From: Bacteroidota bacterium
GTDB taxonomy: Bacteria > Bacteroidota > Bacteroidia > Bacteroidales > FEN-979
Direction: 5' to 3'
Assembly (NCBI GenBank): GCA_026391835.1
Contig: JAPLDF010000049.1
Coordinates: 1 to 52,600 of the forward strand
Length of the DNA stretch: 52,600 nt
Position 1 is the first letter of the stretch, and every line of letters starts with the position of its first letter. The notes below the pieces were generated by a model. It worked only from the letters and a program-made list of their open reading frames with translations, had not been told where the DNA came from and made no database searches. The position numbers and the translations under genes are program-made. Shown here piece by piece: positions 32,543-38,120 of this stretch.

Positions 32543-33796
32543 ATGTTGTACCATCTTTTCACCTGGTTGCACAAAGCATTCAACATCCCCGGCACGGGCG
32601 TGTTCCAGTACATTTCATTCAGGGCTGCTGCAGCGCTCATCACCTCCCTGTTCATCTCCCTGATCATCGGGAAGCGGCTCATCGCCTACCTGCGTAAAAA
32701 ACAGGTCGGTGAAACTGTCAGGGACCTGGGACTTGAAGGGCAAACTTCAAAGCAGGGCACGCCAACGATGGGCGGGCTCATCATCCTGGCAGCCATCCTT
32801 GTACCATCGCTCCTGTTTGCCAACCTATACAACCTTTACATCATCATCGTACTGGTTGCCACGGTTTGGCTGGGATTGATCGGTTTTTTGGACGATTATA
32901 TCAAAGTGTTTAAAAAAGACAAAAAGGGACTGTCCGGAAAACTGAAAGTGCTTGGCCAGATTGGATTGGGGCTGATCGTAGGTCTTACGATGTACTTCAG
33001 CGACAGCATTGTGATACGTGAGCGGGTAAGGCAATCCGCCTATGTGCCGGCTTCGGATGTTTTTGCCATGGAATCAACCACCGATAAAAGTAAAATATTC
33101 TCCAAAACACCTGTGAAATCAACTAAAACCACCATCCCGTTTGTGAAAAACAACGAGTTTGACTACAACTGGCTGATTTCCTGGATGGGTGAAGGGGCAA
33201 AAAAATGGACCTGGCTGGTCTTTATCCCGATCGTGATCTTTATCATCATTGCCGTATCAAACGGGGCCAATCTCACCGACGGTCTCGACGGGCTTGCCAC
33301 CGGCACCTCTGCCATCATCGGGCTTACGCTGGGCGTGCTCGCCTATGTGTCCGGCAACATCGTATTTGCCAATTACCTGAATATCATGTATATTCCAAAC
33401 ACAGGAGAGCTCGCCATTTATATTTCGGCTTTCGTAGGGGCATGCATCGGGTTTCTCTGGTACAACTCCTTCCCGGCACAGGTATTCATGGGCGATACCG
33501 GCAGCCTGGCCCTGGGTGGGATCATTGCCGTGTTTGCCATCATGATACGAAAAGAGATCCTTATCCCCATTTTCTGCGGGGTTTTTCTGGCCGAAAACCT
33601 GTCGGTGGTCATGCAGGTCACCTGGTTCAAATATACAAAACACAAATACGGCGAAGGGCGGAGAATCTTCAGGATGTCTCCCCTGCACCACCATTTTCAG
33701 AAACTTGGCTACCATGAATCAAAGATCGTGATGCGATTCCTGATCGTTGGCATCATGCTGGCCGTTTTAACCATCGTCACACTCAAACTAAGATAG
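32543..33796 (+). CDS. mraY: Phospho-MurNAc-pentapeptide transferase MraY
   Basis: A 417-residue polytopic inner-membrane enzyme that makes lipid I from UDP-MurNAc-pentapeptide and undecaprenyl phosphate. Ten hydrophobic helices can be traced. Active-site motifs: GFLDDYIKV with the Asp pair (about 114-122), [10 protein letters not shown] (about 245) and [12 protein letters not shown] (about 380). The Bacteroidota-type insert with [14 protein letters not shown] lies at about 174-205. The reading frame is complete and ends 5 bp before the murD remnant. Confidence 0.94.
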
Positions 33797-33801
33797 AAAA
33801 A

Positions 33802-34350
33802 ATGACATTCGAAGCATTGGCAAAACAGGGACAAACAACGGTGTATCATTCATTGGTGGCCTCCATCGGCCCGAAGATCCGCGATATCAGGAAACAGTTC
33901 ATCAAAGAGAGCTTTTTCGGGTTTGAGCAGGTGGAACATCGTCTTGAGACCGTGGCGGTCATCAAAGACATGGAATTTATCAACGATTCTCACTCATCCA
34001 CCCTCAATGCCACCTGGTTTGCCCTTGAAAGCATTTCAAGGCCGATCATCTGGATCCTTGGAGGTGTGGAGAGTGGAAATGATTATTCAATGTTGCGTCA
34101 CCTGGTGCGGACAAAAGTAAAAGGGATGGTATGTCTTGGCCTGGACACCACGCGCCTGCACGAAGCCTTTGACGAACTCAACATTCCTATTATTGATGCC
34201 CTGACGATGGATGAGGCTGTGGAGGCGGCATACTACATGGGAAATAACGGTGACGCTGTGCTTCTTTCGCCTGCCTGCCCTTCGTTCGATCTGTTCGATG
34301 ATTATGAAGAGCGCGGCAAGGCTTTTCGCAAAGCAGTAAAAAATTTATAA
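33802..34350 (+). CDS. MurD C-terminal-domain remnant (pseudoenzyme?)
   Basis: A 182-residue product covering only about the last 40 percent of MurD (UDP-MurNAc-L-Ala:D-Glu ligase, normally about 445 residues). The N-terminal UDP-binding domain and the ATP-binding P-loop domain are missing. It begins at an internal Met equivalent to the segment before the normal ALQGKHN motif. Kept: VEHRLE, INDS, TWFALES, LLSPACPSFDLF and YEERG. Changed against the family pattern as I recall it: GKHNxYN becomes GQTTVYH, DSKATN becomes DSHSST, GGVDKGND becomes GGVESGND. It cannot be a working ligase alone. The open frame and conserved fold residues argue against fresh decay. Position between mraY and ftsW is the normal murD slot. 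Confidence 0.85.
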   Translation: MTFEALAKQGQTTVYHSLVASIGPKIRDIRKQFIKESFFGFEQVEHRLETVAVIKDMEFINDSHSSTLNATWFALESISRPIIWILGGVESGNDYSMLRHLVRTKVKGMVCLGLDTTRLHEAFDELNIPIIDALTMDEAVEAAYYMGNNGDAVLLSPACPSFDLFDDYEERGKAFRKAVKNL

Positions 34351-34362
34351 GACGGTTTCTCC

Positions 34363-35574
34363 ATGCTGAAAGTTGCAAAAGATATCAAAGGTGATAAGGT
34401 GATCTGGATCGTGGTGGTCATCCTTTGCATTTTTTCATTGTTGGCCGTGTATAGTTCAACAGGCACCCTGGCGTATAAAAAACAGCAGGGCAACACCGAG
34501 TACTATCTCTTCAAACACTTTATGATCCTGGCTTTTGGACTGGGACTGATGTACATTACCCATCTTGTAAAATACACCTATTATTCACGCATTTCGCAGA
34601 TCGGTCTCTTCCTGACATTCCCCTTGCTGCTGGTAACGCTGATTTCAGGTACCAACCTCAACGAGGCGAACAGGTGGCTTACGGTTCCAATCGTCAACCT
34701 AACCTTTCAGAGTTCCGATGTGGCAAAGCTCTTTCTCATCATGTACCTGGCACGGGTGCTGAGCAAAAAGCAGGAACTGGTACAGGATTTCCGCAAAGGT
34801 TTTCTCCCGGTGATCCTGCCGGTAATTGCAGTGACCCTGCTGATCCTGCCTGCAAACTTTTCAACGGCAGCAATTTTGTTCGTTACCTGCATCGTGCTGA
34901 TGTTCATTGGCAGGATCAGTCTGAAATACATGATATCACTCGCGATACTTGGTATTGTTGCCATTGTGATGATTTTCATGTTGTCAAAAACCTTTCCCGG
35001 TTTGTTTCCCCGCGGCACCACCTGGGTTGCCCGTATCGACCACTTTATCAATAAAAAGGAGGCAGATCCCGACGCCACCTACCAGGTCGACCAGGCTAAA
35101 ATTGCCATCGTCCAGGGGGGTATATTCGGAAAGTCGCCCGGGAAAAGCACCCAGCGCAATTTCCTGCCCCACCCCTATTCCGATTTCATATTTGCCATCA
35201 TCATTGAAGAGTATGGACTGGTTGGCGGTAGTTTCGTGCTGCTGCTCTACCTCATCCTGTTTTTCCGGGTAATCAGGATTGCCACCAAAAGCCAGGGAAA
35301 CTTCGGATCGCTGCTGAGCATCGGGATTGGGTTCAGCCTGGTCTTCCAGGCGTTCATCAACATGGCTGTGGCCGTTAACCTGTTCCCGGTTACTGGCCAG
35401 ACGCTCCCCCTTGTAAGTATGGGGGGCACTTCGATCTGGTTTACCAGCATTTCACTCGGAATTATCCTGAGTGTAAGCCGCACAGCGGAAATCGAAACCA
35501 AGGATGGCACCGAAGTCGAGATCCTCCAGGAGCCAACCCGCAGCAGAAACACTCAAACAGTGCCTGCCGTATGA
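34363..35574 (+). CDS. ftsW: Septal peptidoglycan polymerase FtsW
   Basis: A 403-residue SEDS-family membrane glycosyltransferase that polymerises lipid II at the septum with FtsI. About ten transmembrane helices are visible. Family landmarks include NEANRWL (about 102), the helix pair around residue 150-210, the QVDQAKIAIVQGGIFGKSPGKSTQRNF loop (about 242-268, split here only for description) with PHPYSDFIFAIIIEEYG, and the late SMGGTS. The start is 12 bp after the murD remnant; the stop overlaps murG by 4 bp. Confidence 0.94.
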   Translation: MLKVAKDIKGDKVIWIVVVILCIFSLLAVYSSTGTLAYKKQQGNTEYYLFKHFMILAFGLGLMYITHLVKYTYYSRISQIGLFLTFPLLLVTLISGTNLNEANRWLTVPIVNLTFQSSDVAKLFLIMYLARVLSKKQELVQDFRKGFLPVILPVIAVTLLILPANFSTAAILFVTCIVLMFIGRISLKYMISLAILGIVAIVMIFMLSKTFPGLFPRGTTWVARIDHFINKKEADPDATYQVDQAKIAIVQGGIFGKSPGKSTQRNFLPHPYSDFIFAIIIEEYGLVGGSFVLLLYLILFFRVIRIATKSQGNFGSLLSIGIGFSLVFQAFINMAVAVNLFPVTGQTLPLVSMGGTSIWFTSISLGIILSVSRTAEIETKDGTEVEILQEPTRSRNTQTVPAV

Positions 35575-38120
35575 AACGAATCATCATCAGCGGAGGTGGA
35601 ACCGGCGGGCATATATTCCCGGCTATCGCCATTGCCAATGCCATCAGGGCAAAGGTCAGCGATGCTGATATCCTCTTTATTGGGGCAAAGGGGAGGATGG
35701 AGATGGAAAAGGTTCCCGAAGCGGGGTATCAAATCAAAGGACTTACCATCAGCGGTTTCCAGCGAAGACTTACGTGGAAAAACCTGCTGTTCCCGATCAA
35801 ACTTACGGCAAGCATGCTGAAAGCCCGCTCGATCATCGCGAATTTCAAACCTGATGTTGTGATCGGGGTTGGCGGGTATGCAAGCGGGCCTACCCTGCGG
35901 ATGGCCACCTCCAGGAAAATCCCGACACTCATCCAGGAGCAGAATTCCTTCCCGGGAATTACCAACAGGCTCCTTGGCGGTAGGGTGCAGAAAATTTGTG
36001 TGGCCTATGAAGGCATGAACAAGTACTTCCCGCAAAGTAAAATTATCCTTACCGGGAATCCCATCCGGCAGGATGTGGTGAAGATCAAAGGCAAACGTGA
36101 CGAGGCATTCAGGTATTTCGGACTGGTTACCGGGCTGAAAACACTGGTTGTGATCGGTGGCAGCCTGGGCGCAGGGACCATCAACCAGGCCATCCTGAAA
36201 TTTGTCATGGAAACCGCAGATAACGGCAATCTCCAGATCCTCTGGCAAACCGGAAAATATTATTATGAAAATATCAAAGCGGGATTAGAAGCCTCGAAAA
36301 CCGAAAACCAAAAAGCGGGCATCGAAAATATTGTCCTCCTGCCATTTATCGACCACATGGACCTGGCATACGCCGCCGCCGACCTCATTGTTTCCCGGGC
36401 CGGTGCCATTGCCATTTCCGAACTCTGCGTGGTTGGAAAACCGGTTATCCTGGTTCCTTCACCAAATGTTACCGAAGACCACCAGACAAAGAATGCACGG
36501 GCACTCGAGTCACGCAAAGCCGCATTGCTGATTCCCGACGGTGAAGCCATCCATATCCTGGGAAAAACGATCATTGAAACACTTGCAAACGAGCAACTTC
36601 AAACTGACCTGGGCAGGAACATTGCCGCACTTGGGATTACCGACGCCGCTGACAAAATTGCCGAAATCGCCTTGTCACTCATTTCACCCGGATCTCAAAA
36701 CCAAAATCGTAAATCCGAAATCGTAAATCCCAAATCCATCTACTTCCTTGGCATCGGGGGCATCGGCATGAGCGCCCTTGCCAGGTACTTTTTATCACAG
36801 GGTGCAACGGTGTCGGGCTATGATAAAACAGCGACAGATCTCACTGATCAGCTGATCAGCGAAGGAATGAACATCCATTTTACCGAGGACATCACCCTAC
36901 TGCCGGCCAACCCCGACCTGGTTATTTATACGCCGGCAGTTCCCGCCGATCACCAGGAGTTCCGCTACTTCAGGGAACATGAAATCCCGATGAAAAAGAG
37001 GGCCGAAGTGCTGGGAATAATCTCGCGGAATCATTCAACCATTGCAGTTGCCGGTACCCACGGAAAAACCACCACCTCAACCATGATCGCCCACATGTTC
37101 CGGGTGGCAGGCGTTGAGACCATGGCGTTCCTTGGCGGGATCTCCAACAACTACGGAACGAATTTCTTCGCTGAACCCAGGAATAACAAAGTTGCAGAGC
37201 AACTACCAGGGAAAGCCAGAGGTTCTTTCTGCGTTGTGGAAGCGGATGAATACGACAAATCATTTCTGCAACTCTCACCATCCATTGCTGTTATCACTTC
37301 GGCTGATGCCGATCACCTGGATATTTATGGGAACCATGAAGACCTGAAAAAGACCTTCGCGGAGTTTACTTCGAAGATTGTCGCCGGTGGTTCGCTGGTG
37401 TTGAAATCCGGAACAGGGATCACCCCCCTGAACACCGGCGATTATAGCGTTTATGATTATGCCCTGACCTCAGGAGTTGCCTTTTCCGCGATAAATGTAC
37501 GGGTTGAAGATGGGTTGTACCACTTCGATTTTGCCCATCCCGGCGGTATGATTTCCAGCCTCGTACTGGGGGTTCCCGGGAAATTCAACCTCGAGAATGC
37601 CATCGCCGCACTGGCAGTCGGCCACCTTGCCGGCATTGACGAACAGCATCTCAGAACTGCTCTCCGCTCCTACCAGGGAGTACAACGCCGCTTTGAGTTC
37701 AGGATCCGCAGGTCCGGCATGGTTTACATCGATGATTATGCCCATCATCCCGAAGAACTCAGGGCCTGTATCAGCGCAGCACGGGAGTTGTACCCCACGA
37801 AAAAAATTACGGGCGTGTTTCAGCCGCACCTCTTTTCACGCACCCGCGACTTCGCCGACGGTTTCGCACGAAGCCTTGAACTGCTCGATGAACTGATTTT
37901 GCTCGACATCTATCCTGCCCGTGAAAAGCCTATAGCTGGTATAACCTCGCAAATGCTCCTCGACCTGGTGAATCTCAAAGTTAAAAAGCTGGTATTGAAA
38001 GATGACCTCATCAGGGAACTCAGGAACAGCAAACCCGAAGTCCTGCTGACGATGGGTGCCGGGGATATTGACCGGCTTGTTGCACCAATCACAGAAATGC
38101 TTTCAGCACAAATTGTATAA
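35571..38120 (+). CDS. MurG-MurC fusion protein
   Basis: One 849-codon frame joining two normally separate enzymes. Residues 1 to about 374 are MurG, the lipid II-forming GlcNAc transferase (GGGTGGHIFPA at the start, GGSLGAGTIN at about 195, SRAGAIAISEL at about 280). Residues about 391-849 are MurC, the UDP-MurNAc:L-alanine ligase (FLGIGGIGMSALARYF, P-loop GTHGKTTTS at about 497, VVEADEYDKSF, DDYAHHP, FQPHLFSRT). The linker, about 375-390 (NRKSEIVNPKS), is encoded by five 7-bp repeats at 36703-36737. No start codon lies between the parts, so MurC can only be made as part of the fusion. Both halves look intact. Overlaps ftsW by 4 bp and abuts ftsQ. Confidence 0.9.
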   Translation: MKRIIISGGGTGGHIFPAIAIANAIRAKVSDADILFIGAKGRMEMEKVPEAGYQIKGLTISGFQRRLTWKNLLFPIKLTASMLKARSIIANFKPDVVIGVGGYASGPTLRMATSRKIPTLIQEQNSFPGITNRLLGGRVQKICVAYEGMNKYFPQSKIILTGNPIRQDVVKIKGKRDEAFRYFGLVTGLKTLVVIGGSLGAGTINQAILKFVMETADNGNLQILWQTGKYYYENIKAGLEASKTENQKAGIENIVLLPFIDHMDLAYAAADLIVSRAGAIAISELCVVGKPVILVPSPNVTEDHQTKNARALESRKAALLIPDGEAIHILGKTIIETLANEQLQTDLGRNIAALGITDAADKIAEIALSLISPGSQNQNRKSEIVNPKSIYFLGIGGIGMSALARYFLSQGATVSGYDKTATDLTDQLISEGMNIHFTEDITLLPANPDLVIYTPAVPADHQEFRYFREHEIPMKKRAEVLGIISRNHSTIAVAGTHGKTTTSTMIAHMFRVAGVETMAFLGGISNNYGTNFFAEPRNNKVAEQLPGKARGSFCVVEADEYDKSFLQLSPSIAVITSADADHLDIYGNHEDLKKTFAEFTSKIVAGGSLVLKSGTGITPLNTGDYSVYDYALTSGVAFSAINVRVEDGLYHFDFAHPGGMISSLVLGVPGKFNLENAIAALAVGHLAGIDEQHLRTALRSYQGVQRRFEFRIRRSGMVYIDDYAHHPEELRACISAARELYPTKKITGVFQPHLFSRTRDFADGFARSLELLDELILLDIYPAREKPIAGITSQMLLDLVNLKVKKLVLKDDLIRELRNSKPEVLLTMGAGDIDRLVAPITEMLSAQIV
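36703..36737. repeat. Heptamer tract forming the murG-murC linker
   Basis: AAATCGT, AAATCCG, AAATCGT, AAATCCC, AAATCC in tandem at 36704-36737. Same family as 25058-25192 and 24215-24250; the encoded peptide resembles that in the FG-GAP gene (PKSEI). Confidence 0.9.

Follow-up and report, generated by a model that had tools for sequence, protein, structure and literature searches.

The window, as the whole stretch of 52,600 nucleotides that was analysed is called here, contains at the murD place of its dcw cluster an intact open reading frame that starts with ATG, comprises 182 codons and is separated from mraY by 5 bp and from ftsW by 12 bp. The open frame and its tight packing agree with the description given by an earlier reading of this DNA from its letters alone (the sequence-only reading). 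This gene, referred to as short murD, and its neighbours are located as follows.

mraY: 32543..33796, + strand, directly upstream of short murD
Short murD: 33802..34350, + strand, 182 aa, consisting of the MurD C-terminal domain and, ahead of it, about 45 residues left over from the central domain
N-terminal 45 residues of short murD: 33802..33936, + strand, start Met, degenerate HN..N site and amphipathic helix
Residues 46-182 of short murD: 33937..34347, + strand, Mur_ligase_C fold, with D62 kept in 53 of 53 short forms
ftsW: 34363..35574, + strand, directly downstream of short murD

At 35571-38120 of the window, murG and murC are fused into one ORF of 849 aa (murG 269 bits, murC 366 bits), and this fusion seems limited to part of the genus, as judged by open-frame lengths. 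MurG/MurC fusions are mentioned in PMC6420597.

In a Pfam search of the short murD product, Mur_ligase_C is the sole match (33.4 bits, residues 46-159), and neither Mur_ligase nor Mur_ligase_M is matched. This result bears out the claim of the sequence-only reading that the gene in the murD slot lacks the UDP-binding and ATP-binding domains. Its claim that only the C-terminal domain is left is correct as to the domain matched, but not as to the extent of the product, which starts about 45 residues before this domain; we regard these residues as the end of the central domain. The NCBIfam murD profile is matched at its positions 285-440 of 441 with 149.5 bits (cut-off 211.95). The product does not have the three Mur domains, including a P-loop central domain, by which a MurD ligase (EC 6.3.2.9) is recognized. 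The AF2 model of the product, built from a 48-row alignment of short forms, has a mean pLDDT of 82.8, with means of ten-residue blocks of 50-65 for residues 1-50, which are of low confidence, and of 84-96 from residue 51. The best Foldseek match of this model is the C-domain of MurD 7u35 (TM 0.73, E 6e-15), and the fold is that of a MurD C-domain. The match list also includes 6h5e_D (MurT of the GatD/MurT complex), and the weaker matches are other Mur ligases and the plastid RNA polymerase chains 8r6s_Q, 8ras_Q and 8qma_O (E 5e-5 or worse), which we take to be PAP11, of MurE origin.

The short form shares with full-length MurD the locus, the C-domain fold and the C-terminal motifs (SPAC.SFD.F and E.RG), whereas it is without the UDP- and ATP-binding domains and most of the ligase residues of its own part. 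Alignment confirms the motif losses read from the letters alone, with TT..H for HN..N, DSHSST for DSKATN and ESGND for DKGND. At the ligase sites of E. coli MurD, of which the first three are presumably numbered H267, N268 and N271, followed by K319 and K348, the product has T12, T13, H16, H64 and S91 instead. The numbers of K319 and K348 are those of PMC8788868. The short protein alone cannot be a ligase. In the full MurD of MurL-containing genomes, K114 (P-loop), E157, D182, H183, K198, H276, N277, R311, D326, K328 and K355 (reference numbering) are 100% conserved, and N280 is 95% conserved. Among the short forms, the share that retains the residue is 4% for H276, 28% for N277, 15% for N280, 60% for K328 and 17% for K355 (the K348 site). 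Retained are D326 (100%), H310 (94%), R311 (83%), S420 (96%), P421 (98%) and F439 (98%). The leading helix is also changed. Its sites 23, 24 and 27 are hydrophobic in 75, 53 and 92% of full MurD and in 30, 8 and 47% of the short forms, and sites 18, 19, 22, 26, 29, 34 and 38 are still 92-100% hydrophobic in the short forms. We take sites 23, 24 and 27 to face the missing domain in full MurD. If so, the loss of hydrophobicity at these sites would represent adaptation of the short protein to standing alone, which is possible.

Distribution of the short form and number of truncations

The comparison covers 107 dcw loci, all of them retrieved through a match to murD. They comprise 22 loci of family f1 (including that of the window), 5 loci of other MurL-containing genomes of the near sample, 10 loci of MurL-lacking genomes and 70 loci from the 74 other MurL-containing genomes of the order. 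The short form (176-189 aa) is present in 53 loci, a full MurD together with MurL in 44 and a full MurD without MurL in 10. In 52 other genomes, which belong to many families of the order, the murD slot of the dcw cluster is thus occupied by the same short form, which the sequence-only reading proposed to look for in relatives; this recurrence exceeds what chance would give. Full and short forms occur side by side in nine families (f4, f6, f13, f83, f91, f106, f128, f147 and f157). MurL is not found in one of the 53 short-form genomes (G024). Two short-form loci (G029 and G514) have no mraY on the fetched stretch, and the contig ends close to murD in one locus counted as full (G036) and in one short locus (G514). 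Three of the 25 f1 genomes (G001, G004 and G005) were left out, having no listed short form, and four of the 74 other MurL-containing genomes have no dcw match. In three of these four (G434, G535 and G561) the cluster is probably unassembled, because only distant FtsW relatives are found. The fourth, G489 (L301), has ftsW without adjoining mraY or murD, and no short form is found in it at E up to 1e-8 besides the MurD2 match. Loss of the short piece from G489 is possible, because ftsW is present and both mraY and murD are absent beside it. Among the loci compared, all of which were fetched by a murD match, none has an intact mraY-ftsW junction without a murD piece. In a contig scan, the best 80 relatives are 44-52% identical and are mostly full-length murD. 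Of these 80 loci, 73 passed a length and motif filter and form the set of named Bacteroidota used below. One of the 80, L219 (uncultured Bacteroidales), has a 192-codon open stretch. A plasmid search returned 41 records, all below 60% identity.

A quick tree of MraY and FtsW (107 rows, 802 columns) requires at least 12 changes between short and full labels, 10 of which are forced by starred branches, and contains 17 all-short clades when rooted on the MurL-lacking rows. A single short-bearing clade is rejected on these data (p-AU 4e-10), its log-likelihood being 660.7 lower. The domain common to both forms gives a tree (182 columns, 93 of the 107 rows, with 12 f1 rows, G032 and G033 left out) with 8 changes, 2 of them forced. 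Under this tree a single short clade is not rejected (p-AU 0.312); the short forms change rapidly, and long branches come together. Nine short rows from mixed families were looked up in this tree. Three of them (f157, f13 and f106) lie nearest to a full MurD of their own family, which is the pattern expected of cutting in place, and six do not. As judged from these alignments, repeated truncation of murD in sister lineages is strongly probable. A single ancestral truncation was considered and set aside, since the order-wide sample and the MraY+FtsW tree speak against it and the domain tree alone is not decisive. It is very unlikely that the short gene arose once and was then transferred to the corresponding position in other dcw clusters. 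Such a course would agree with the one short clade that the domain tree allows, but it needs repeated exact replacement between mraY and ftsW, the very genes whose tree rejects one clade, and it does not account for the short forms of f157, f13 and f106 that are nearest to the full MurD of their own family.

Probable genes for the D-glutamate step

The genome that contains the window (5.35 Mb, 86 contigs, 96.74% complete) encodes one further full-length MurD-type protein over the cut-off (C3:39814-41190, 303 bits), which covers positions 2 to 440 of the MurD profile. A functional MurD elsewhere had been expected by the sequence-only reading, and this gene fits that expectation. Directly upstream of it lies an ORF of 415 aa that matches the MurL model NF041275 with 262.4 bits (267 in a second scan; E 5.6e-78), below the cut-off of 700 of this narrow model, which is named for Xanthomonadales. 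In X. oryzae, L-Glu is added by MurD2 before MurL epimerises the product, and MurD2 owes its L-Glu preference to Glu and Arg at the positions that correspond to D182 and K348 of E. coli MurD (PMC8788868). This signature, Glu at the D182 site and Arg at the K348 site, is present in 10 of the 10 MurD2-type rows aligned and in none of the 3 canonical rows; in the MurD2-like protein of the own genome, its residues lie in QEHLD and FDRGID. The MurD2/MurL route is the most likely one here, because a full-length paralogue stands beside a MurL homologue and carries both residues diagnostic of MurD2. Given these sequences, MurD2 would very probably add L-Glu and MurL would then epimerise the product, with the specificities of both enzymes predicted from their homologues. 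The sequence-only reading had also suggested a changed specificity. This is possible for the MurD2-like ligase, but not for the short protein: a changed specificity, if any, would lie in the other ligase, because that ligase is MurD2-like and adjoins a MurL homologue.

Within the near sample, 29 of 41 genomes contain MurL, and within the order 81 of 247 do (E up to 1e-20). Across the phylum, 3 of 392 genomes match, the own genome strongly and two others weakly at 1e-4. Glutamate racemase MurI is not found over its cut-off in any of 103 MurL-containing genomes (29 of the near sample and 74 others of the order), in which weak hits below the cut-off occur in 4 of the 29 and 8 of the 74; it is found over the cut-off in 10 of the 12 MurL-lacking genomes of the near sample. 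In the own genome, the sole MurI-like match stays below the cut-off (41.5 bits). Like the Xanthomonas pathway (PMC8788868), the own genome thus combines a MurL homologue, a MurD paralogue with Glu and Arg and no MurI over the cut-off. The order differs from Xanthomonas in that this route is found alongside either a full MurD or the short form and in that MurL-MurD2 fusions occur. Such fusions are seen in two families of the order (G491 and G514), at L302:764-3394 (876 aa) and L305:1108-3921 (937 aa), and G581 and G656 resemble these genomes by open-frame length. MurL has been reported in Gamma- and Alphaproteobacteria and actinobacteria, with relatives of low similarity in a fungus, cyanobacteria and an amoeba, and Bacteroidota are not mentioned in the accessible parts of these papers (PMC8788868, PMC5808125).

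Some genomes depart from this pattern. In 44 MurL-containing genomes (for example L097 and L262-L277), full MurD is present with its catalytic residues intact and MurI is not found over the cut-off. The class IV aminotransferase model TIGR01121 has matches in 40 of 80 genomes, none of them over the cut-off, distributed over 30 of 44 full-MurD genomes and 7 of 31 short-form genomes (Fisher p 1.4e-4; 31 of the 53 short-form genomes tested). Supply of D-Glu by an enzyme resembling D-amino-acid aminotransferase might explain why full MurD is kept in MurL-containing genomes. This explanation is only suggestive, because the tree-aware test of the association comprises 9 pairs with a median p of 0.06. 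G024 (L081), a 94% complete genome of the own family, has the short form and neither MurL, MurI nor a full MurD-type gene or MurD2 over the cut-off, which represents either a gap in the data or another route. G039 (98% complete), of the same order, has no MurI, MurL or MurD over the cut-off.

Selection on the short gene and possible role of its product

The median dN/dS of the short gene within f1 is 0.10 (0.06-0.27, 9 pairs), far from 1, and those of its neighbours are 0.036 for mraY and 0.033 for ftsW (8 pairs each). Nine of 231 pairs fall within the dS range of 0.1-1.5 used, and the values are rough because dS exceeds 1 in all nine (1.15-1.49). With MraY+FtsW as the yardstick, divergence of the C-domain is 1.87-fold in short pairs (225 pairs, 208 of them from f1) and 1.08-fold in full pairs (15 pairs). 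Because the short gene evolves more rapidly than the genes beside it, constraint on it is relaxed, but as estimated from these sequences this constraint is real. With its catalytic parts lost and purifying selection kept, short murD has the sequence properties expected of a retained non-catalytic pseudoenzyme. With considerable confidence, the short protein is read from its sequence as a functional non-ligase.

The short form itself, its spread over many families, the pattern of MurL and MurI and the selection on the short gene are shown by the sequences. The sequences indicate that the ligase part of murD has been lost repeatedly in a group with MurD2/MurL genes and that the C-terminal piece has been kept. 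This is explained most simply by a separate function of the piece. In the explanation that we consider best, MurD2 and MurL, encoded elsewhere in the genome, would handle the D-Glu step, and the ligase activity of the old murD would become dispensable because of this route. The gene would then be cut separately here and in sister lineages to a stand-alone C-domain of about 182 aa with a leading helix. The resulting protein would be a non-ligase that does something else, because it is kept by purifying selection. We give this explanation as a whole, from takeover by MurD2/MurL through repeated cutting to a retained non-ligase with another role, a probability of roughly 0.6.

If murD were instead eroding after takeover by MurD2/MurL and its C-terminal end remained by chance, the evolution faster than that of the neighbours, the scattered loss of catalytic residues and the very divergent short forms of f2, f126 and f134 (73-229 bits to the short-form profile) would be accounted for. 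Such decay is unlikely, however, because 53 short forms of 176-189 aa stand at the murD place over a wide divergence, 46 of them with Met in the same column, because the 17 all-short clades have about the same end product, and because dN/dS is about 0.10. The claim of the sequence-only reading that the gene is a retained non-ligase rather than a product of recent decay is upheld by the number of short forms and by this dN/dS. No internal stop is found inside any listed short-form match, although the openness of the short forms is partly by construction, because the best open frame was taken.

A split ligase, in which the short protein lends its C-domain to a Mur protein without one or to MurD2, would explain why the C-domain fold, D62, S156 and P157 are kept. 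The sequence-only reading had likewise proposed a ligase working in trans, and this proposal is not supported: MurD2 is full-length by its match to the MurD profile, no orphan N-terminal or central MurD fragment is found in the own genome, in which the other hits of the MurD profile lie in frames of 451-913 aa, and the ligase residues of the retained part are mostly lost. We consider a split ligase improbable. It is still less probable that the DNA or RNA, and not the protein, is kept for the expression of ftsW through spacing, a promoter or translational coupling. The gap to ftsW is indeed 3-12 bp in 21 of 22 f1 loci, but selection acts on the protein (dN/dS about 0.10) and no promoter-like or terminator-like match to a consensus, of sigma-70 type only, is found within 33600-34500. 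The genomes are mostly multi-contig drafts and are probably in many cases metagenome bins, which might raise the question of an artefact of assembly or binning. The probability of such an artefact is negligible, because the short form is present in 53 assemblies, in one of them on a 5.26 Mb contig (G565, L278).

Within the explanation by takeover and repeated cutting, the most likely role of the retained protein would be that of a binding or scaffold subunit of a cytoplasmic Mur/division assembly, the genes for MraY, FtsW and MurG-MurC surrounding its own. Three things suggest a role as scaffold or partner in wall synthesis, whose chance we would put at slightly less than even: the position of the gene between mraY and ftsW, the helix sites that have stayed hydrophobic, and the reported binding of MurD, MurE and MurF by MurG in T. 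maritima (PMC6420597). MurT resembles the short form as a Mur-ligase relative in a heteromeric complex, the partner role of the short form being conjectural. Unlike the short form, MurT retains the middle Mur domain and has catalytic activity. In the MurE-like subunit of plastid RNA polymerase, a Mur-ligase-like fold is reused in another machine, but that machine serves chloroplast transcription and the structural match is weak.

Internal methionine of full-length murD genes

Met is present at the alignment column of the start of short murD in 46 of the 53 short forms and also in most full MurDs (42 of 44 from MurL-containing genomes, 9 of 10 from MurL-lacking genomes and 69 of 73 named Bacteroidota; pooled, 120 of 127, and 125 of 127 within 3 residues). 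Upstream of this internal Met, the A content in full genes is 0.461, closer to that of annotated murD starts (0.488) than to that of other internal Mets (0.325). Against synonymous shuffles, the Met window ranks 1 of 106 for low structure, for third-position A/T and for third-position A, and it ranks 4 of 106 for raw MFE. The ranks for structure, A/T and A are 2, 1 and 1 of 54 in the full genes of MurL-containing genomes, and 1, 1 and 2 of 54 in the named Bacteroidota. In 33 genes of Flavobacteriales, Sphingobacteriales and Chitinophagales, all 33 of which have the Met, they are 2, 1 and 2 of 71. The signal is weak in 19 named genes of Bacteroidales and Marinilabiliales (ranks 12, 13 and 3 of 71), and the 10 MurL-lacking genes of the order show none (ranks 13, 29 and 9 of 54). 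The p-values overstate the case for an internal start because the genes are related, and a fairer measure is how the Met ranks along the gene. A at position -3 occurs with a frequency of 0.74 and 0.55 at this Met in two sets, 0.40 at other Mets and 0.37 at annotated murD starts. In the MurL-containing and named sets, this Met has A at -3, -11 and -12 more often than other internal Mets do, and its A at -6 is not enriched. In Flavobacterium johnsoniae, initiation is favoured by A at -3 and by low structure from -20 to +20 (PMC6847099); the words 'murD' and 'internal' are absent from the main text of that paper.

From these signals we tentatively propose that full-length Bacteroidota murD may make a C-terminal fragment from an internal start, initiation in vivo being predicted from sequence. 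With close to an even chance, the surroundings of the Met instead owe their composition to the codons used at a domain boundary or in a variable loop, and the truncations share a start simply because no other conveniently placed ATG follows it ahead of the C-domain. The breadth of the signal (residues of about 249-273), its absence from the MurL-lacking set and the presence of Met at the same place in S. agalactiae MurD 3lk7 all agree with this alternative. So does an ftsW control window at residue 376 (27 codons before the end), where the structure signal of 1.69 exceeds that of 1.29 at the murD Met, and structure alone is therefore not proof of a start. This window sits shortly before the murG start, and its signal may represent the approach to that start or a variable tail. 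The alternative is opposed by third-position A/T and A, which peak at the Met itself (0.105 and 0.14) above the highest values listed for any mraY or ftsW window in these genomes (0.09 and 0.062). It is also opposed by another Met, 17 residues further on and 93% conserved, which has no start-like surroundings and starts no aligned short form. If an internal start in full murD already yields the fragment, this would be a possible origin of the short form, in that the truncations would have removed the ligase and kept the second product. The further proposal that Bacteroidota murD is a two-product gene, whose second product acts by itself in wall synthesis or division, is rather doubtful. By this proposal, its ligase part, made redundant by MurD2/MurL, would have been deleted at least about 10 and perhaps 17 times, which would have exposed the hidden C-terminal product, and that product would have been kept nearly always.

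In titles and opening lines of abstracts, mostly from journals readable without subscription, no title on a truncated, pseudoenzyme or internally started MurD was found. The MurD2/MurL route would be extended by the present analysis to this order of Bacteroidota, for which the accessible parts of PMC8788868 and PMC5808125 do not mention it. If the preferred explanation is true, MurD, which is essential and has been studied intensively as a target for antibiotics, would have a further role separable from catalysis, and nature would have carried out this separation many times. It would then provide a direct way to ask whether Mur ligases are structural parts of the wall-synthesis complex.
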